From Verrucomicrobiota bacterium (lineage in GTDB: Bacteria; Verrucomicrobiota; Verrucomicrobiia; Limisphaerales; J093), in NCBI GenBank assembly GCA_012517065.1, contig JAAYVR010000077.1, forward strand, positions 1 through 32,942: DNA of 32,942 nucleotides, given 5' to 3'. The position numbers and the translations under genes are program-made. Under the pieces are notes generated by a model. That model ran no database searches. It was not told the DNA's origin and was given only the letters and a program-made list of their open reading frames with translations. This document shows positions 3,636 to 32,942 of this stretch, one piece after another. Position 1 is the stretch's first letter. Each line of letters begins with the position of its first letter.

Positions 3636-4607
3636 ATGAGGCGTTCTTGGATCAACATCATCGCCGCCACAACGGTGGCGGGTATCTCGGGTGCATGGGC
3701 CGCAACCACAGCCAATGGCCTTGTTGCCATCGTAAACGACGAAGCCATTACATGGAAGGAAGTGGCGCAGCAAGCCGCGATGGCAGTCGAGGCACGCATG
3801 GCTTCTCTTGCCGCCAGGTCTGCAAAACTCGAAGAGGAGATCAAGAAAGCCCAGCAGGATGCACTCGAAATGCTCGTGCAACGCAAGCTGATCCTGCACG
3901 AATTCAAACAGGCAGGATACAACCTGCCAGAAAGCCTGATCGAAGACAGGGTGCGCAGCAGGCTTCGTGAAAGGTGGGGCGGCGATAGGGCAACCATGAC
4001 GCGCGACCTCCAAAGCCGCGGAATGACCTTCGAGAAATACCGTGAAATGATTCGAGAAGAGATTATCTGGGAGGCAATGCGCGTCAAGAACGTCGCCCGC
4101 GAAATCGTTATCTCACCCCACAAAATCGAAAAGTATTACGCGGAAAACTTGGACAAGTTCAAGGTGGCCGACAGTGTCAAACTGAGAACCATCATGATTG
4201 CAAAGCCCGCGTCGGGTCCACCGGAACAGGCCCGCCGCCGCGCACTCGAAATCCTCAAGAAACTCGACGAGGGCGTGCCTTTTGCAGAACTCGCCGGCGT
4301 ATATTCCGAAGACAGTTTCCGCAACCAGGGGGGCGACCGCGGCTGGGTCGAATTGGAACGTGAACACTATCAACCGGCCCTTGACCAGGCCATCCGCGCC
4401 CTCAAACCCGGCGAGCACAGTGGGGTTGTGGAAACCGACAGAGCATTCTGGATCGTTCTGGTCGAGGATTCCAAGACAAGCCATATTCGCCCGCTTCCCG
4501 AAGTCCGGGCCGAAATCGAGCGCATTCTGACCGAACAGGAGAGAAACCGACTCGAAAAGGCTTGGATTGACCGCCTCAAATCCAAAGCTTTCATTCGGTA
4601 CTTCTAG
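3636..4607 (+). CDS. SurA-like periplasmic peptidyl-prolyl isomerase/chaperone
   Basis: Predicted exported folding factor for envelope proteins. The 323-residue product has a signal peptide (about 1-22, ending GAWA), a SurA N-terminal chaperone region (about 26-180, opening GLVAIVNDEAITWKEV) and one parvulin-type rotamase domain (about 181-280, with LRTIMIAKPA, FAELAGVYSEDSFRNQGGDRGW and LKPGEHSGVVET-like segments). E. coli SurA has two parvulin domains; one is common elsewhere. The frame extends upstream to 3504, but the ATG at 3636 immediately precedes the signal peptide. The stop codon TAG is followed at once by CCCGGAAGCCTCACC, an arm of the stop-codon palindrome family. The symbol surA is not assigned because other parvulin chaperones share this layout. 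Confidence 0.85.
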   Translation: MRRSWINIIAATTVAGISGAWAATTANGLVAIVNDEAITWKEVAQQAAMAVEARMASLAARSAKLEEEIKKAQQDALEMLVQRKLILHEFKQAGYNLPESLIEDRVRSRLRERWGGDRATMTRDLQSRGMTFEKYREMIREEIIWEAMRVKNVAREIVISPHKIEKYYAENLDKFKVADSVKLRTIMIAKPASGPPEQARRRALEILKKLDEGVPFAELAGVYSEDSFRNQGGDRGWVELEREHYQPALDQAIRALKPGEHSGVVETDRAFWIVLVEDSKTSHIRPLPEVRAEIERILTEQERNRLEKAWIDRLKSKAFIRYF

Positions 4608-4671
4608 CCCGGAAGCCTCACCTCCCCACAGACACACCCAAGCCTGCAGTCTCGCGAGAGTCACCGGAGCC
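4605..4671 (+). repeat. palindromic stop-codon repeat, copy B (3' of surA-like gene)
   Basis: The left arm TAGCCCGGAAGCCTCACC begins with the in-frame stop codon of the SurA-like gene. About 45 bases on, GCGAGAGTCACCGGAGCC is a degenerate match to the inverse arm GTGAGATTTCCGGGCTA. The total of about 67 bp fits the family. The left arm is clear, the right arm weak. Confidence 0.5.
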
Positions 4672-4932
4672 CGCAGGTTGCTGGATCCTAAGCAGCCGGC
4701 CGCTTTGCAGGCAACTCACGGTGTTCAACCGCATATTTCGTAGCCCGGCGTAGCCGGAACCAAAGTCGCCCCACGGGCCGTGCCCGGCTCTTGCACCCCA
4801 TGGACCTTCAGCCACGTCGGGCAGGGGAATATGCCCAGCGACTCCGTCGCAAGCAACAGCACGCTGATCCCAGTGGTTTCTCCGCGCTGCCGCATATGCA
4901 GTGGGCGTTGGTGGGCGCGAAGCGCTTGGAGT

Positions 4933-4950
4933 GCGGCAGCTTGCTGCCGC
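4933..4950. repeat. short perfect hairpin GCGGCAGC-TT-GCTGCCGC
   Basis: An 8-bp perfect stem with a 2-base loop, preceded by GCGCGAAGCGCTTGGAGT and followed by TTTG. It could form a tight RNA hairpin. As it is 325 bp beyond the nearest gene end, it looks more like a dispersed repeat unit than that gene's terminator. Confidence 0.5.
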
Positions 4951-4967
4951 TTTGTCTTCATGCACAA

Positions 4968-5212
4968 ACAACGTGCCTGGAACCATATCGGCATGATGGA
5001 GAGAACAACGTGTCTGTCCCCATATCGGCATCCGAGGGGTTCCTCCGCACACTTCGGCAGCCCCCGATTGGAACAAGGGGCAATTTGCAGGCCACGCCGC
5101 AATCCGGGGGCAAAACCCAAACAACGAGCCTGTCACTCTATTCGGGGCCACACTCAGACAACGGGCCTCCCAGTTTATGCGGAGCCTCGAGGCAACTACG
5201 TGTCTGTCCCCA
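4968..5212 (+). repeat. cluster of GTGTCTGTCCC-type motifs including a 138-bp block
   Basis: Motif copies start near 4968 (degenerate, ACAACGTGCCTGGAACC), 5007 (AACGTGTCTGTCCCCATATC), 5123 (AACGAGCCTGTCACTCTATT), 5160 (degenerate, AACGGGCCTCCCAGTTTATG) and 5198 (ACGTGTCTGTCCCCACGTGC). The segment 5007-5144 is a full-length relative of 29977-30113, sharing long stretches such as GGCCACGCCGCAATC and AACCCAAACAA. All motifs point the same way. Confidence 0.7.
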
Positions 5213-5326
5213 CGTGCATTCCAAGAATCGCCTTGCTGCCGCCAGCGCGTTGGCGGAATCGGTTCCGCCGGGGAGCGCGGCGTGCGGTCCGATAATTGAG
5301 ATTCTCTCGTCTGGGCGGGGGTTTCC

Positions 5327-5400
5327 TTGACCCGGAAATCTCACTGGAGTAAAGGCACGGGCGAATCCGAGGGGGCTGACCGATGAGATTTCCGGGTCAA
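5327..5400 (+). repeat. palindromic stop-codon repeat, copy C
   Basis: A perfect 17-bp inverted repeat: TTGACCCGGAAATCTCA at 5327-5343 and TGAGATTTCCGGGTCAA at 5384-5400, separated by 40 bases. The centre contains GAATCCGAGGGGGCTGACC, also found in copy D. Here the trinucleotide before CCCGG is TGA on both strands instead of TAG. No gene end abuts this copy; it lies 110 bp before the GH42 gene. Confidence 0.8.
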
Positions 5401-5509
5401 ACATGCGGGCTGATGCCAAATAGCCGTCTTTGTGAATCTGCGGAGTTTTTTGGTTTGCAGAGTTTCTGTTGGTGGGTATTTTCATCACGTAACCAACCAG
5501 AAAACAGCC

Positions 5510-7582
5510 ATGTACTTCGGAGTCGATTATCATCCAGAGCATTGGGTTTACCCCTACGCGGGTACACCTGAAGAACCAGAGACCCGCTGGGAACGCGATG
5601 CCCAGCTCATGGCAGCAGCCAGCGTCAACGTGGTGAGAATGGGCGAGTTCTGCTGGGGACTCTACGAACAAGAAGAGGGGAAATACGACTTCGAATGGAT
5701 GCGGCGTGTCATGGACATAATGAAAAAGCACAACATACAGGTTGTGCTGGGCACGCCGACAGCGGCACCGCCACTTTGGCTCGCTCACAAACACCCTGAA
5801 ATACTCCCTCTTGATGAACAGGGCCTGACGCTCCACGAAGGCACGCGACATGCCTATTGCATGAACAGCGACGTTTACTGGGACTACTCCAGAAGAATCA
5901 TCACGGCGCTCGCAGGGGCACTCGGAAACCACCCGCAATTGATCGCGTGGCAAATCGACAACGGCATCGGAGGCCATCGCACAGAGTTTTCGTTCAATGA
6001 AGAATCCAAGCACGACTGGCATGCATGGTTGAGAGCAAAATACGAGACCATTGACCGCTTAAACGAGTGTCTTGGGTTGAGGTTTTGGGGCCAGGTGGTC
6101 AACCGGTGGGAGGATGTCCCGATGCCCATGATGGCACCAACGGTCCACAACCCCGCTTTGGTCCTTGACTGGATGCGCTTCGCAAGCGACACCTGCATCG
6201 CATACGTCAAAATGCAGGCCGACCTCCTCCACGAACTTACCCCGGGCATTCCGGTGACGACAAACCTCCGCGCCCTTTCCAGACATTACGATCACTTTGA
6301 CATGGCAGAAGTGCTGGACTTTGTCTCGTTGGACACTTACGCAACCCTTCAAAGACGCCCATCAGAGAACGCTGCCGAGTACGACATCATGCGTTCCCTC
6401 AAAAAATCCGGAATCAAGACACCGGACGGACAGGAAGGTTTCTGGGTGATCGAACAAAAAGCGGGCAATGTGAACTGGCAGGAAGTCAATTCCCTGTTGC
6501 GGCCCGGCGTGGTTCGGCTCTTCACATATCAGCTTCTGTCGCGTGGCGCAACGGGCGTGCTCTATTTCTTCTGGAGATCACCGAGAATAGGTTCCGAGAA
6601 GTTTTACGGCGGCGTCCTCACGCACGACGGACGTGGCGACAACCGCGTTTATCGCGAAATCTGCCAGATCGGCGAAGAGATGAAATTGCTGGCGCCAATA
6701 CTGCGCGATACCAAGGTCGTGGCCGAAACTTGTATCCTGTTCAGCCACGCCAACGATTGGAAACTCAAACAGCCGCAGCAGCATACGGCCCATTTCAAGC
6801 TGCGCGATCATATCATGCTATTTTACAACGCCTTGCACGACCTTAATATCCCGGTCGATTTCGCACGGCCGACCGATGATTTATCTGGTTACAAGGTGGT
6901 GTTTGCTCCGTCCCTGCACCTGCTGGCCGGCGGCGAAGCTGACCTACTCAAATTGTATGTCCACAACGGCGGAACCCTCGTCGCCACATTCAACACCGGC
7001 CTTGTGGACGAGCACGATATCGCCCCTGACAACGGTTTTCCCCATGACATGACCGACATGTTCGGGCTGGAGGTTCTTGAATTCGATCCCATCCCGCCCG
7101 AGGAAGAAAACCACCTGCTTTTCAAGCCGCAATTCCCGGCCACGCACTCGCATGCAGGCCGAATCTGGTGCGACGTTATCGAGCCAAAAGAATGCCAGGT
7201 TCTTGCAACGTTCACCCGGGACTTTTACGCCGGACGTCCCGCGCTCACCATCAACGGCTTCGGCGCCGGCCGGGCGGTCTATATTGGCACAATGTGCAAA
7301 CAGAACTTCTATTACGACCTCGTCAACTGGCTCCGCCAAATCTGCAACATAACCCAGCCCCTCAAAGTCCCGGAATCTGTCGAGGTAAGCATGCGCCAAA
7401 AGGGCGACACACGAATCTATTTTCTGCTCAATCATCAAAGCAGCCCTGTCCGAGTCAGCTTTTACAAACCAATGCACGACTACTTAACCGGCAGCACATT
7501 GACCGGTCACCACGACATCCCGCCACACGGGGTGTTAGTCCTTGATGAACGGCTCCCGCAGTCCCAGACAGCCCCCGCCTGA
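5510..7582 (+). CDS. GH42 beta-galactosidase-like protein, acid/base Glu replaced
   Basis: Glycoside hydrolase family 42 enzymes remove terminal beta-galactosyl (in some members other) residues from oligosaccharides. The 690-residue length and the order of TIM barrel (about 1-380), trimerisation-like domain (about 390-600) and C-terminal beta domain fit GH42. Diagnostic segments are FGVDYHPEHW, VVRMGEFCWGLYE, GTPTAAPPLWLAHKHPEILP and FWVIEQKAGNVNW, whose Glu315 matches the nucleophile. The usual acid/base segment WQxDNE reads WQIDNGIGGH, with Gly152 (GGC at 5963-5965) in place of Glu. The protein is therefore either inactive, uses another acid, or belongs to a subgroup with altered chemistry. 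The start at 5510 fits homologues (MYFGVDYHPE); no Shine-Dalgarno and no signal peptide are visible, so it is probably cytoplasmic. Confidence 0.9.
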   Translation: MYFGVDYHPEHWVYPYAGTPEEPETRWERDAQLMAAASVNVVRMGEFCWGLYEQEEGKYDFEWMRRVMDIMKKHNIQVVLGTPTAAPPLWLAHKHPEILPLDEQGLTLHEGTRHAYCMNSDVYWDYSRRIITALAGALGNHPQLIAWQIDNGIGGHRTEFSFNEESKHDWHAWLRAKYETIDRLNECLGLRFWGQVVNRWEDVPMPMMAPTVHNPALVLDWMRFASDTCIAYVKMQADLLHELTPGIPVTTNLRALSRHYDHFDMAEVLDFVSLDTYATLQRRPSENAAEYDIMRSLKKSGIKTPDGQEGFWVIEQKAGNVNWQEVNSLLRPGVVRLFTYQLLSRGATGVLYFFWRSPRIGSEKFYGGVLTHDGRGDNRVYREICQIGEEMKLLAPILRDTKVVAETCILFSHANDWKLKQPQQHTAHFKLRDHIMLFYNALHDLNIPVDFARPTDDLSGYKVVFAPSLHLLAGGEADLLKLYVHNGGTLVATFNTGLVDEHDIAPDNGFPHDMTDMFGLEVLEFDPIPPEEENHLLFKPQFPATHSHAGRIWCDVIEPKECQVLATFTRDFYAGRPALTINGFGAGRAVYIGTMCKQNFYYDLVNWLRQICNITQPLKVPESVEVSMRQKGDTRIYFLLNHQSSPVRVSFYKPMHDYLTGSTLTGHHDIPPHGVLVLDERLPQSQTAPA

Positions 7583-19150: not shown

Positions 19151-22100
19151 TCAATCGGATAGTCTCTCGATCATTTCGGCAACACGCGCTCGGTGTTGAA
19201 GCATCTTGCGTGGATCAAGCGTGAAATGTGTCAGGTCACGTGAGACATCCTCTGGGACCTCGAGCAATTTGCGTGCTTCTTGGACAAGAGAGCTCTTCCT
19301 GCCGGTTTGCGCGCGTTCAATGCGTTGCTTCAGAAGCCAGAAATACTCGTAGTCCTCCATGCCGTCCCTGAGGTTCTCCCATCTGATCGAGTTGATAGGG
19401 CCGTCGAGGCATGGTTCGCTTGACGCATTTGGATCGCGCCGCGGCGGGTAAAGGAACCGGCCGTCGCCGTTCCCCCATGGATTTCGGGTGCCAACCGGCG
19501 TTCCGTAGCCGCTCACCCAGCTCATAGGATCTTTCCATGGGTCTTGGAGCTGGGGTGGCGGATATGCAACCGAGCTGTTCCAGTAAATGGTGGCCCAAAT
19601 AAGGATCCCGTTCACGCCGTATTGCCACGACTGCCACGGCCAGAGTCGCAACTCGGTTCCGGGATGATCGATGAATTCGGTAACATAAGGCGCTTTTGGG
19701 CCGGTGCAGATGTACCACCAAACCTCTTCGCCAGCCCGCTGGCGTTCACGCACTCGTTCTGGTGTCCATTCGGGCGTCAACGCGCACCAGATGTCAACGT
19801 GCCCGATCAACTCCTTCTCGGGTTGTTCAGTCAGCATTCTCTTGATTCCCGGGGCAGCGTCTTTCAGCCTTTTCATCCCGGCCACGACAAACTCGTAGTC
19901 TTTAGGATCAGGTTCGTCGAACCAGTACGTGAACGCCTTGTCAATCCAGCCACGTTGCCTCAGATGATCTTCGATTTGCCCCAGATAATCTCTGAACAAC
20001 CGCGCGTGCTCGGGCGTACCTTCTTGATATCCCGCAATGTTTCCGAGATGACGTGAATGGAACGTTCCGCCACCCATTCCCTGCAACGGAAGGACAAAAC
20101 TGTTGAATCCTCCTTTGCCAAGCCAGCGCTCGGCGGCAGGGTCAAACTTTGAGAAATCAACCACTGCTCGGGCGTTTGTGCCTTCCCCAACAAACCGCAC
20201 GTCAATTGGAGCATGGTCGTAGAACGAGTACGGACTGATCCGATGTTCGACGAAATTCTGAAGATATTTCTCGAAGACAGCCAGTTTGTCGTCCTCATTG
20301 GTGAGTTTGTGATAGGCGTTAATTGCGCCTGCGCCAAGGCCGAGTGCACTTCGCAGATGTGTTTCCCGGGGCAGCTCGAAGTCGTACACATGAAGCACCA
20401 GAGGGACTTCCACGCCGCCCGCTGTTGTGCGCAGCTTGATCGACGACTTGTAGTCGCCCGCGACCGTTTCCCTTGGCACCCAAAAGGTCAACCACAAAGG
20501 TTGGTTCGAGTATCGCCTCAGCGACAGCGGAGTTTTCAACGGTGGCAGGGGATCTGGATACCAGCCCCGCACACACGTGTCGTCGGTCGGCTGGGTCACA
20601 TGAACGTAAGCCACTTCTTCGATCCGTACCGTGGGCAAACTGCTTGCCTTTCGAGGCGCGCGCCACGGGCCGAATTCAACATGTAGCAAATCCAAATCCT
20701 GTGACGGTTGCAGGACAACTTGTGCAGCTTCGTACTCACCGCGCGCTGCGGTGATGCGCACCGGCGGAGTGGGCCGGCCATTGGAAGGGCGCGACGGAGC
20801 CGGTCTGTTGCGTCCAACCTTCCAACCGCTCTCGCACCACCAAACAGTCAAACCATCCTTCTCTGCCAGCCAGTATCCGTAGCTTGCGTCCTCCAACATT
20901 GCTGCCTGCACTGTGCTTTCGCCGGACCAAAGCGTGCGTCCATCGGCATCGTGTAACGCCAGATAAACCGCATTCTCAACCCCGCCGTCGAATTTGAGGT
21001 CGAACCAGAACACCGAGTCTTCGCCGGGCGCACGTTTGTGGTGAAACGGGAAAACCCCTTCGTGACGCGTTGCTTCCTTTCTCGGCTTTGATGTTAACGG
21101 TTCCTTCCGTTCCGTGCGCCACGTAGCGTCACCAATCCACACCGTTTTGCCCGTCAGATTGGTCAGACACATCTGGATCATATTAAGGCTGCGCGCTGAA
21201 CGTGGAAGTGCGCGCACTGCCAACCCTTCCAAGCATTTCGTGGTCGCAATGAATACCGTGGAACCTTCGCCTTCGGGCGCTTTCCCTTCAAGCGCGGCTT
21301 CGTAGTTGTAAACGTTCACTTGGAATCCTGCCCCATTGCTATTCTGTGCAAGCCGCACAAATACCTCGCGGGCGGGAAATAGTTCACTCGGCAGAGCAAC
21401 AGTACCGCCGCGTCGCTGACCATCAAACTCCGCGACTTTCACCCAGTTCGATCCTTCGACGCTCGCGTCAACCCGTAAGACGCCTTCCACGTGATGGTTG
21501 ATTTGCACGCTCAGTTTGCCGTTTAGTTGCCGGAAACCTTCAACCCGATGACGGTAAATGACCTCTGCTCCGGGTGAGAAAAGCCATCGATTTGAGTTGA
21601 ACCCTGCGCGGCTCTTTAGCAACGGCCTGTGATAGTTGGCCCCGCGCCAGTTGTAATCCGGGGCAAAGTGATAACGGTTTTCGGCGATCCATTCGGCTTC
21701 GCCAAGCTCGACGCCGGGCGGCACGACAACGTGTGATGCCATTACCCGCCGCAAAAGCGGTCTTGCGAAGAATAGTTCCCCTTTTGCCTGCCATTGGCCG
21801 AGCCGAACATAGTCTGCGCGAGAGTCATCCGGCATGACGAATACGAATTCGTGCCGACCCCAATCGGTTCCGACCCCAAAATCCCTGTTAACCCTTGTTG
21901 GTCCCGCCACTGCGCACCCGCCACTGCCGCCCGGGGCTCGTCGCGCCTGAAAAACAAGCTCGTAGAGACCGCCCGGTTCGAAACTGAGGTCGTCGGTCCG
22001 CCAATAACCATGGTCGCTTCCGCTTCCAACGACGCTCACAGCAGGGCTTCCATCGAAAGCCGCGTCATGTTTCTGCCCTTGGCAACCCACGAGTTTCCAT

Positions 22101-22252
22101 CCTTCAAGTCCCGCTTCGCCTCGAGCGAATCCAGGATTTGGCAAGAGGTTTGGCCCGGAAATGTCGTCTGCGGCAGGCAGATCAACCACGGCCGCAACCG
22201 TCAAAAGCGCAAACGACAGCCGCATTAAACTGCAGAGAAACGAGTCTTTCAT
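19151..22252 (-). CDS. large secreted DUF4091 glycosidase-like protein
   Basis: 1033 residues with a signal peptide (about 1-28, ending in LPAAD), an N-terminal carbohydrate-binding-like beta domain (about 35-170, opening NLLPNPGFARGEAGLEGWKL), middle beta domains, a catalytic-type barrel and a C-terminal DUF4091 segment (INSIRWENLRDGMEDYEYFW at about 953-972). The barrel holds FTYWFDEPDPKDYEF; the Asp-Glu pair at 779-780 matches the position of the catalytic pair in the related GH123 family (N-acetylgalactosaminidases). Predicted periplasmic or surface glycan hydrolase; substrate unknown. The ATG at 22252 is chosen over an in-frame GTG two codons earlier, because AGGAG overlaps that GTG and lies 5 bases before the ATG. 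Confidence 0.85.
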   Translation of the reverse strand: MKDSFLCSLMRLSFALLTVAAVVDLPAADDISGPNLLPNPGFARGEAGLEGWKLVGCQGQKHDAAFDGSPAVSVVGSGSDHGYWRTDDLSFEPGGLYELVFQARRAPGGSGGCAVAGPTRVNRDFGVGTDWGRHEFVFVMPDDSRADYVRLGQWQAKGELFFARPLLRRVMASHVVVPPGVELGEAEWIAENRYHFAPDYNWRGANYHRPLLKSRAGFNSNRWLFSPGAEVIYRHRVEGFRQLNGKLSVQINHHVEGVLRVDASVEGSNWVKVAEFDGQRRGGTVALPSELFPAREVFVRLAQNSNGAGFQVNVYNYEAALEGKAPEGEGSTVFIATTKCLEGLAVRALPRSARSLNMIQMCLTNLTGKTVWIGDATWRTERKEPLTSKPRKEATRHEGVFPFHHKRAPGEDSVFWFDLKFDGGVENAVYLALHDADGRTLWSGESTVQAAMLEDASYGYWLAEKDGLTVWWCESGWKVGRNRPAPSRPSNGRPTPPVRITAARGEYEAAQVVLQPSQDLDLLHVEFGPWRAPRKASSLPTVRIEEVAYVHVTQPTDDTCVRGWYPDPLPPLKTPLSLRRYSNQPLWLTFWVPRETVAGDYKSSIKLRTTAGGVEVPLVLHVYDFELPRETHLRSALGLGAGAINAYHKLTNEDDKLAVFEKYLQNFVEHRISPYSFYDHAPIDVRFVGEGTNARAVVDFSKFDPAAERWLGKGGFNSFVLPLQGMGGGTFHSRHLGNIAGYQEGTPEHARLFRDYLGQIEDHLRQRGWIDKAFTYWFDEPDPKDYEFVVAGMKRLKDAAPGIKRMLTEQPEKELIGHVDIWCALTPEWTPERVRERQRAGEEVWWYICTGPKAPYVTEFIDHPGTELRLWPWQSWQYGVNGILIWATIYWNSSVAYPPPQLQDPWKDPMSWVSGYGTPVGTRNPWGNGDGRFLYPPRRDPNASSEPCLDGPINSIRWENLRDGMEDYEYFWLLKQRIERAQTGRKSSLVQEARKLLEVPEDVSRDLTHFTLDPRKMLQHRARVAEMIERLSD

Positions 22253-22793
22253 GTGCACTCCTGATCTAAATTCTTGTTTCCTGGGCTCGGGTTCGCATCT
22301 CCATTCCGTTTACTCGAGATTGGCGTCAAAGTCCAAACATTGTTCGTGTTGAGTCGCACTTAGCCCCGGAGCGCATTGCACTGGCCAGCAAACGAATGCG
22401 CGCCGAATGTAACTCCTTCTTTCCCAGCCCACTGCATAATAGGCAGGGCGCTCCGTCTCTGCCGCGCTGCGAATATCGTGTCTGTCACCCTATTTGTTCC
22501 AGCACCGCCAAGAGCGGGCCAACGACACCCACCACCAGCGGCGACTTCAGGTCCGATGCGCCGCAGACATCGTGTCTGTCACCCTATCCTTAAATCACCT
22601 AAACCCTCCGCCAGAAGATTCGCCGTTTGATGGCAGGACGCCGGGCCCCTGGCGCGCCAAATACGATCAGCACATGCGCTGGGTTTGGCTTGCGGGGACC
22701 GTGAGCCCCACCTTTCACTACACATTGCATCAGGTAGGGCACCAGCTTCGTTTTCGCGCTTGCTCACAGTTCCAGACTTCATAACCTTCGCCC
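22253..22793. other. divergent intergenic region DUF4091 gene / galE-like, with repeats
   Basis: The 541-bp gap contains the AGGAG ribosome binding site of the DUF4091 gene (22258-22262) and two GTGTCTGTCACC-type motifs (22471-22590). No gene is supported; no promoter was recognised with confidence. Confidence 0.55.
22471..22590 (+). repeat. paired GTGTCTGTCACC-type motifs
   Basis: ATCGTGTCTGTCACCCTAT occurs at 22475 and again at 22569, 94 bp apart. The interval includes CGACTTCAGGTCCGATGCGCC, resembling the segment before the second motif in the 17.8-kb array. Confidence 0.7.
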
Positions 22794-30483: not shown

Positions 30484-32942
30484 TTACCAGCTCGCCCGCT
30501 GCTCCGAGGCAACAACCCGCAACCTCAGAAAACGAGCGTCTCCCCCGGCGAGCGGTTCAAGGTAATAGGCCTCAACCACCTCCCGGCCTTCAGCCGGTTG
30601 GGTGACGATTTCGCGAACGTTCGATCCAGCAGGCTCCCAGTTGATCAAATCACGGCTCACTTCGATCAAGTATTCAAAGCCTGGATTCGGCGTCACTCGT
30701 TCGTACGTTAACACGAGATACCCGGCCTGCACCTGAACAACCGGCGCACTCAACAACCCCAGACTCAACAAGTGCGCTCCATTCTGTCCTGATGCATTCT
30801 CGAGAATCGCTTTACCATCGACGAGATCGCTGTCGCGGACTTGCGACGCTGCCGCAAGGCCGGCCCTCCCAGTAGTTGCCGTTGCCAAATGCAGCCCGCC
30901 ATCGCCGAACCCAAGTTCGACATCGTTGTCGAGAATTCTCACCGTGGCCGGGCTTGCGAACCGCTCGTCGTAAACGCCTCCTTCCAGAATTGTGACAGTG
31001 ACTGTCTCATCCCCTTCAACTTCATCATCGTCAATCGGGGTTACCACAACGGAGACCGTGTTTGCGCCTGCGGGGAACGTAACGGACTGGCCAATGTCCA
31101 CGTAATCTACGCCCGCTTGCGCAGTGCCGGTTACACTGAATTGCACGGTAAGCGGATCAACCAACGATCCTGCACGCCCGAAGCGAAACACAGCCGTACC
31201 GGGGCCATATTCTGAGGCGGTGTCGTCCACTGCCCAGACAGTAACAATCGGCACATCGTCATCCATGATGGTCACCGTAGCACTGTCTGGCGAGGCAACG
31301 TTATAGCTTGCGTCAGGCTTGAGCGTAACAATAACGGTCCTGTCGCCGTCCACAGTTTCATTGTTGATCGGCTCGACAACCTTGACGATTTCTGTCGCAC
31401 CTGGGGGGAAAGTGACTGTGTTCCCGAGCGCAACATAGTCAGTCTCAGGCGTAGCCGTGCCGCCCACTTCAATGTTCACAGTCAATTCAGCGCCGATGGA
31501 CTCTGCTCGCCTGAACACAAACACCCCTTTTCCCCCGTTCTCGTCCGCAGTCGAGTCAGCCGCGGTTACGGTCACAACCGGAAGAATCAGCGGGTCGTCA
31601 TTCTTGATCGCGACCGTCGCAGTGTCCGGGCTGCCAACGGTGTAGCCGGCTCCCGCTTGAAGTGTCAAAACCAAGGTCTTGTCTTCCTCCCACACAGCAT
31701 CGTCGATAGGGCTGACCAGTAGTGTTGCCGACGATGCACCAGCAGGCAAAACAACCGTCCTGCCAATTGGGACGAAGTCCTCCCCTTCTACGGCGGTGCC
31801 GCCCACGGCAAATGCAACAGCAAGCTCGTTCTTGGCAAGACCGAGACGTGTAAACTTGAACTCAGCGGTGCCTTCACCTGTCCCCGATTCTCCGGCCGCC
31901 GGGTCGGTAGCGGTCACTGAAACCACGGGCGTCTCGTCGTCCTTGATCGTAATCGTGGCATGCGAGGGTTCGCCAACGACGTAATCATTGCTCGGCTCGA
32001 TCGTTATTTCCACGGTCTCGTCGGGTTCAGCAATGGTGTCGTTCGATATGTAAACAATGAGATTGGCGCTGGTGGTTCCACTCTTCACTGTCAAACCATT
32101 CGTGAGAGATGACGGATAAAGGTACCAGTCGCCACCGTTGGCTGCTGTTCCGTATCGAGCTGTGCCGTTGAACTTGAACCGAACCAACACGTCTCCTGTC
32201 AACAAGCCCGAACGTTTGATCGTGAAGACTCCTTTGCCGTAACCGCTGTTTAGTTCGCCTGCAATGGCTGTTGACGCCTCAACGGTGATAAGCGCAACAG
32301 AGTTCAAGTCGTCATCCAAGATCTTAACAGTCGAGCGCGCGGGACTTCCAAGTGCAGCACCAACCGCATTACTCAACTCGACACTGAACTCCTCGTCGGC
32401 CTCATAAACACCATCGTTGGCAATGCTGATCTCGATCACCTTGTCCTGCGCATCCCCGCTTGCCCAGCTCAATGTCCCACTGGCAGCAGTGTAATCCTCG
32501 CCCCCTTTCGCACTACCATCCACCGTGGAATAACTCACACTGGCTTCACCGTCAGACCCACCAACCCGGCTCACAACCAACTGAACCGTGGCGCCATTCT
32601 CAGTGACGTCGTATGTGGCAGAAACAAATGCAATCGTCCCAGGCGCCGGTTGATCGTCATCAACAATCGTCACCTCCGCGCTCGATGGACTCCCAAGACT
32701 CGCCCCGCTGGCGTTGCTCAAGACAACGCTGAACTGTTCGTTGCCTTCATACACCGAATCGTTCAGCAGCGGCACGTCAATGTACTTGTCCTGTGCATCC
32801 CCGTTTGCCCAGCTCAATGTCCCACTGGCAGCAGTGTAATCCTCGCCCCCTTTCGCACTACCATCCACCGTGGAATAACTCACACTGGCTTCACCGTCAG
32901 ACCCACCAACCCGGCTCACAACCAACTGAACCGTGGCGCCAC
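30484..32942 (-). CDS. Calx-beta domain repeat protein, C-terminal part
   Basis: The 5' part lies beyond the window; at least 818 residues are visible and the frame is open to the last base. It holds six Calx-beta-type beta-sandwich repeats, the first partial. Each closes with an acidic segment such as VTIVDDD, VKILDDD, ITIKDDE, VAIKNDD, VTIMDDD or VRILDND, likely Ca-binding loops. The first two are a separate subtype (DYTAASGTLSWA), the last three share VDYVDIGQSVTFPAGA-like cores. The C-terminus has a YLIEVSRDLINWEPAG module, as in many Verrucomicrobiota surface proteins. A secreted adhesin or surface-scaffold role is inferred. No sorting signal is evident at the C-terminus. Confidence 0.9.
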   Translation of the reverse strand, partial: GATVQLVVSRVGGSDGEASVSYSTVDGSAKGGEDYTAASGTLSWANGDAQDKYIDVPLLNDSVYEGNEQFSVVLSNASGASLGSPSSAEVTIVDDDQPAPGTIAFVSATYDVTENGATVQLVVSRVGGSDGEASVSYSTVDGSAKGGEDYTAASGTLSWASGDAQDKVIEISIANDGVYEADEEFSVELSNAVGAALGSPARSTVKILDDDLNSVALITVEASTAIAGELNSGYGKGVFTIKRSGLLTGDVLVRFKFNGTARYGTAANGGDWYLYPSSLTNGLTVKSGTTSANLIVYISNDTIAEPDETVEITIEPSNDYVVGEPSHATITIKDDETPVVSVTATDPAAGESGTGEGTAEFKFTRLGLAKNELAVAFAVGGTAVEGEDFVPIGRTVVLPAGASSATLLVSPIDDAVWEEDKTLVLTLQAGAGYTVGSPDTATVAIKNDDPLILPVVTVTAADSTADENGGKGVFVFRRAESIGAELTVNIEVGGTATPETDYVALGNTVTFPPGATEIVKVVEPINNETVDGDRTVIVTLKPDASYNVASPDSATVTIMDDDVPIVTVWAVDDTASEYGPGTAVFRFGRAGSLVDPLTVQFSVTGTAQAGVDYVDIGQSVTFPAGANTVSVVVTPIDDDEVEGDETVTVTILEGGVYDERFASPATVRILDNDVELGFGDGGLHLATATTGRAGLAAASQVRDSDLVDGKAILENASGQNGAHLLSLGLLSAPVVQVQAGYLVLTYERVTPNPGFEYLIEVSRDLINWEPAGSNVREIVTQPAEGREVVEAYYLEPLAGGDARFLRLRVVASEQRASW
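32451..32942 (-). repeat. near-identical 147-bp internal duplication in the Calx-beta gene
   Basis: The segment 32451-32597 recurs at 32796-32942 (offset 345 bp, 115 codons) with apparently one mismatch (CCGCTTG versus CCGTTTG) and the second copy is cut by the window end. It encodes the DGSAKGGEDYTAASGTLSWA region of two consecutive Calx-beta domains, whose other halves differ more strongly. Confidence 0.85.

Follow-up and report, generated by a model that had tools for sequence, protein, structure and literature searches.

What becomes of a GH42 protein that carries glycine where the acid/base glutamate is expected? The question is raised by the gene at 5510..7582 (+) of the window (the whole stretch of DNA analysed, 32,942 nucleotides), which encodes a protein of 690 amino acids without an apparent signal peptide. 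Its open reading frame begins at an ATG at 5510, likely the true start, and its stop codon ends at 7582; the start methionine is common to 147 of 149 aligned orthologues. Since the first barrel strand runs from residue 2, no room is left for a signal peptide, and the protein is most likely cytosolic. Pfam matches delimit the GH42 barrel domain (PF02449, 5525..6685, +), the trimerisation domain GH42M (PF08532, 6722..7333, +) and the C-terminal domain GH42C (PF08533, 7379..7546, +), with the PF02449 profile covered over positions 1-374 of 376 (E 3.5e-118, 395.6 bits, with 21 as the cut-off). In sequence, the solved structures nearest to the protein are those of GH42 beta-galactosidases, and the best structural matches of an AlphaFold2 model with a mean pLDDT of 93.7 are all GH42 proteins (Z 40-46). 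By catalytic-domain profile, three-domain architecture and fold, the protein therefore belongs to GH42. What it lacks is the general acid/base Glu of the W-x-x-x-N-E motif by which a GH42 retaining beta-galactosidase is recognised.

Residue 152 across an order

The original prediction placed a glycine at the acid/base position, within the motif WQIDNG, next to an intact nucleophile, and both observations were borne out. Gly152 (GGC, 5963..5965, +) aligns on the acid/base Glu of 3tts (WHVSNEYGG) and 9ta3 (WHVNNEYGC), at the position equivalent to Glu160 of BiBga42A, while the nucleophile position is occupied by Glu315 (GAA, 6452..6454, +) in the motif VIEQKAG. An orthologue is present in 199 of 320 genomes of the same order at E <= 1e-150, nearly always in single copy, and our clade alignment comprises 149 distinct, essentially full-length members, window protein included, with 57-97% identity to that protein. 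Among the 388 phylum genomes sampled, nothing lies between this clade and matches at 37% identity. The clade forms one group on a long stem in the FastTree phylogeny (support 0.98), and its neighbour on the tree is a GH42 lineage with a WQxDNE motif. A single contig scan, of a kind that finds close relatives only, returned 15 loci, all belonging to this clade, under titles naming Verrucomicrobia/Verrucomicrobiota groups or simply "bacterium".

Not one of the 149 aligned orthologues from the order has Glu at residue 152, which is Gly in 112, Ser in 24, Asn in 6, Ala in 5, and Lys and Asp in one each. Outside the clade, Glu stands at the acid/base position of all 68 GH42 proteins examined: it is found in each of the 28 nearest from elsewhere in the phylum (~31-37% identity), and in the 40 more distant ones it aligns directly in 35, the N-E motif of the other 5 being gap-shifted in the pairwise alignment. 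Furthermore, 32 members use a GGG or GGA codon at 152, one base away from a Glu codon, and Glu appears in none. Whether relatives conserve the glycine, a point raised with the original prediction, therefore has a divided answer, as Gly gives way to other residues and the lack of Glu is shared throughout. Judged from these alignments, the conserved feature at 152 is the absence of Glu, not Gly, and glycine itself can be ruled out as the functional residue, given that Ser, Asn and Ala substitute for it repeatedly. Our literature searches, confined to an open-access library, turned up no account of a GH42 protein lacking the acid/base, nor of a Glu315-dependent, acid-free GH42 lineage.

One genome holds two clade members. 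The second copy (L120, G049:C21:1-14500, 3758-5803, - strand) is the more divergent, at 57% identity, and its motif reads WQVDDK, with Lys where the acid/base would stand and Asp instead of the Asn just before it.

Selection and the loss of the acid/base

The idea that Gly152 reflects a sequencing error, a recent mutation or a decaying gene has next to no probability, and we rule it out: the residue belongs to a group of 149 orthologues without Glu152, one of which carries the same residue at 97% identity, and dN/dS is low. The estimable pairs that include the window gene give dN/dS values of 0.04-0.06, and two further pairs 0.08-0.09, with synonymous sites saturated in several of these comparisons. 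The clade is under strong purifying selection. Decay, which the original prediction had thought unlikely, can accordingly be set aside, and the case it named in favour of an error or single mutation, with close homologues all carrying Glu, is not what the order contains; the subgroup is real.

Parsimony on the clade tree separates two kinds of active-site position. Residue 152 changes 15 times, the median of all sites, and the position of Tyr277 changes 24 times; Glu315 and Glu46 change once each, and Arg113, Gln148, Trp49 and Arg356 not at all. Because 152 and 277 change at or above the median rate, neither appears to be under catalytic constraint. Taken together, the lack of Glu152 in every member and the variability of 152 and 277, as opposed to the frozen nucleophile and pocket, indicate that classical two-glutamate, double-displacement hydrolysis was most likely given up a single time, by the clade's ancestor. 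On the simplest reading of the sequences the acid/base was also lost once, in that same ancestor. The clade protein is thus probably no longer an ordinary sugar-cutting enzyme.

The pocket and its possible functions

Residue equivalences with BiBga42A were assigned from sequence alignment and motif position, and the subsite -1 set compared was Arg121, Asn159, Asp285, Tyr287, Trp326, Phe356, Glu366 and His369. In that enzyme O4 is held by Arg121 and Glu366, O6 by Trp326 and His369, and O2 by Asn159 and Asp285, while Phe356 stacks on the ring (PMC10688820). Most of these contacts persist in the 149 clade members, with Arg in 149, Trp in 147, Phe or Tyr in 148, Glu in 145, Asn in 128 and, at the Asp285 equivalent, Asp or Glu in 138. 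Two are poorly kept, the Tyr287 equivalent (Tyr in 23 of 149) and the His369 equivalent (His in 40 of 149, Tyr in most members). The window protein has Arg113 (5846..5848, +) at the invariant arginine, Tyr366 (6605..6607, +) in place of the O6-binding His369 (PMC10688820), and Tyr277 (6338..6340, +) at the Tyr287 equivalent, a tyrosine retained in its own lineage and replaced mostly by Asn or Thr in the clade. The residues that are nearly unchanged across the clade are Glu315 (Glu in 148 of 149, Asp in one), Arg113, Trp147, Gln148, Trp323, Glu363, Arg356, Trp49 and Glu46. Other residues stand in for the cysteines that normally bind Zn. Asn163 (5996..5998, +) is invariant in the clade at a position that a Zn-cluster Cys occupies in many GH42 proteins. 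The earlier view that the surrounding barrel motifs are intact therefore holds only in part, and gives way at Tyr366, at the Zn cysteines and, clade-wide, at Tyr277.

Two insert regions are specific to the clade. The first (residues 13-25, 5546..5584, +) has invariant Pro15 and Gly18 and a Glu24 kept in 148 of 149 members; the second (residues 300-308, 6407..6433, +) lies just ahead of the nucleophile strand and has a near-invariant Pro305. These conserved positions bear on the suggestion that the protein is still a hydrolase in which Glu46 (5645..5647, +), Glu24 or Asp150 would replace Glu152 as general acid. Glu46 and Asp150 are found in 148 and 145 of the 149 members, respectively, and Glu24 sits in an insert exclusive to the clade. 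However, Glu46 and Asp150 are also common to the WQxDNE lineage, where the normal acid is present and their role must be a different one, while Glu159, the nearest conserved acid of the following loop, changes 11 times. Moreover, a relocated acid leaves the lost constraint on Tyr277 unexplained, and on these sequence grounds we consider it unlikely.

A sugar-binding role or an acid-independent transfer fits the data best. Of the other mechanisms once proposed, nothing in the analysis points to a lyase-like one. The reading that we tentatively place first is that the clade protein is a mostly single-copy, cytosolic protein that binds or senses a galactose-type ligand, in other words a conserved pseudo-galactosidase. 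In this model the ancestor of the clade gave up classical hydrolysis, the subsite -1 pocket would still bind a galactose-type sugar or a derivative, Glu315 would serve mainly as a polar contact, and the space vacated by Glu152 could take a substituent of the ligand; the protein would mainly bind or sense. We prefer it because constraint has been lifted from the two residues whose roles are chiefly catalytic, the acid/base and the nucleophile-assisting Tyr, and persists on the binding residues. Mutagenesis of BiBga42A supports this preference, as kcat on pNP-Gal falls 170-fold in E160A and 2,900-fold in E318A, and Y287F lowers kcat 80-170-fold (PMC10688820), so that the clade has dispensed with Glu152 and has not maintained Tyr277, two residues whose loss is costly. 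The contrast of 0/149 with 68/68 for Glu152, the purifying selection and the lack of recurrent sugar-utilisation neighbours also count for binding. Against it stand the near-invariance of Glu315, beyond what bare binding seems to require, and the retention of Tyr277 in the window lineage. Furthermore, E160A of BiBga42A keeps measurable activity, and the E160A/E318A double mutant still hydrolysed substrate within two days during crystal growth (PMC10688820), which shows that acid loss alone does not end the chemistry.

In a close rival reading, possible if somewhat less probable, the protein is an acid-independent enzyme. Glu315 would attack C1 and form a glycosyl-enzyme from a donor with a leaving group that departs unprotonated, such as a glycosyl phosphate or nucleotide, or an acyl, aryl or thio glycoside. 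The glycosyl group would then pass to an acceptor, or the intermediate would be resolved with a base that comes from the substrate or from a small anion lodged in the Glu152 gap. Such chemistry would account for the retention of Glu315 and the frozen subsite -1 residues, and is consistent with E160A losing no more than a factor of 170 when the substrate is an activated aryl galactoside (PMC10688820). GH1 myrosinases provide a clan GH-A precedent for an enzyme without acid/base (PMC6522968). Residue 152 is, moreover, almost exclusively small, the single Lys and Asp being the exceptions; this restriction is no proof of a needed cavity, however, as 20 of 93 sites of similar rate are likewise restricted. 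The failure to maintain Tyr277, a residue important for GH42 kcat (PMC10688820), also counts against acid-independent catalysis, as does the lack of any donor suggested by the neighbouring genes. The fuller proposal, of an order-wide cytosolic GH42-derived enzyme that transfers glycosyl groups through Glu315 without a protein acid/base, possibly within one transcription unit with dciA, a helicase-loader gene, we regard as doubtful.

Profile-based annotation would label genes of this clade as beta-galactosidases, probably in error. Should the clade prove catalytic, it would be a natural counterpart of engineered glycosidases stripped of their acid/base. If it is not, the clade would represent a bacterial pseudo-glycosidase maintained in many genomes, and its ligand could be tested for directly, since nucleophile and pocket are still in place.

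Known systems and genomic neighbourhood

The clade protein resembles WQxDNE-type GH42 enzymes (Thermus A4, 1kwg) and BiBga42A (8ibr) in its three-domain architecture, its nucleophile Glu and the subsite -1 contacts made by Arg, Trp and Glu, and its predicted fold superposes on theirs over 627-655 residues (Z 42-46). It differs from both in the absence of the acid/base Glu, the unmaintained Tyr277, the loss of the Zn Cys cluster, the two inserts and, in most members, the change of the O6 contact from His to Tyr. GH1 myrosinase, a plant thioglucosidase, belongs to another family and offers a parallel of mechanism, not of membership, the clade having no known link to thioglycosides or ascorbate. 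One report describes beetle pectin-degrading enzymes as conserved glycoside hydrolase pseudoenzymes that arose in expanded multigene families (PMC6549527). Set beside that account, the clade would similarly have kept the fold and lost catalytic function; unlike those families, it mostly has one gene copy per genome throughout an order, and its nucleophile is kept. The next match to the predicted structure after GH42 is IaSGT, the Ignavibacterium GH35 beta-1,2-glucosyltransferase (7vkw, Z ~35), which is likewise cytosolic and transfers without hydrolysis. IaSGT retains both catalytic Glu residues and is thereby ruled out as a precedent for acid loss (PMC8861115).

Neighbours of the gene in the window are mostly housekeeping (PdxJ, PPIase, DciA, peptide deformylase, ketohexokinase, ParB and an aminotransferase). 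Pfam and clustering of neighbourhood open reading frames identify a dciA-like gene (PF05258, 7627..8037, +) as the sole recurrent neighbour. It occurs beside the GH42 gene in 27 of 40 neighbourhoods of the order, in 26 on the same strand, directly downstream; of the 13 neighbourhoods without it, 2 have a contig end within ~500 bases. Most of the other large clusters lie antisense to the GH42 gene, and no recurrent sugar-utilisation genes were found beside it in the 40 neighbourhoods. Since only dciA recurs, a dedicated sugar-utilisation locus is argued against, and gene neighbourhood was dropped as a clue to substrate. The link with dciA may be an old shared gene order, and co-transcription of the two genes is possible.

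A short intergenic repeat containing ACAACGTGTCTGTCCCC lies at 4967-5031 and 5120-5147. Allowing up to 2 mismatches, this 17-mer has 689 copies genome-wide (380 + 309), compared with 3 for a reversed control, and the repeat is a dispersed family, possibly mobile. A perfect 17-nt inverted repeat, TTGACCCGGAAATCTCA, is found upstream of the GH42 gene, with arms at 5327-5343 and 5384-5400 and 40 nt between them. Elsewhere in the window, 19151-22258 (-) encodes a large protein whose C-terminal half matches GH123-type catalytic and N-terminal domains, and 30484-32925 (-) carries six Calx-beta matches in an open reading frame that starts 18 bases from the window end and may be longer.
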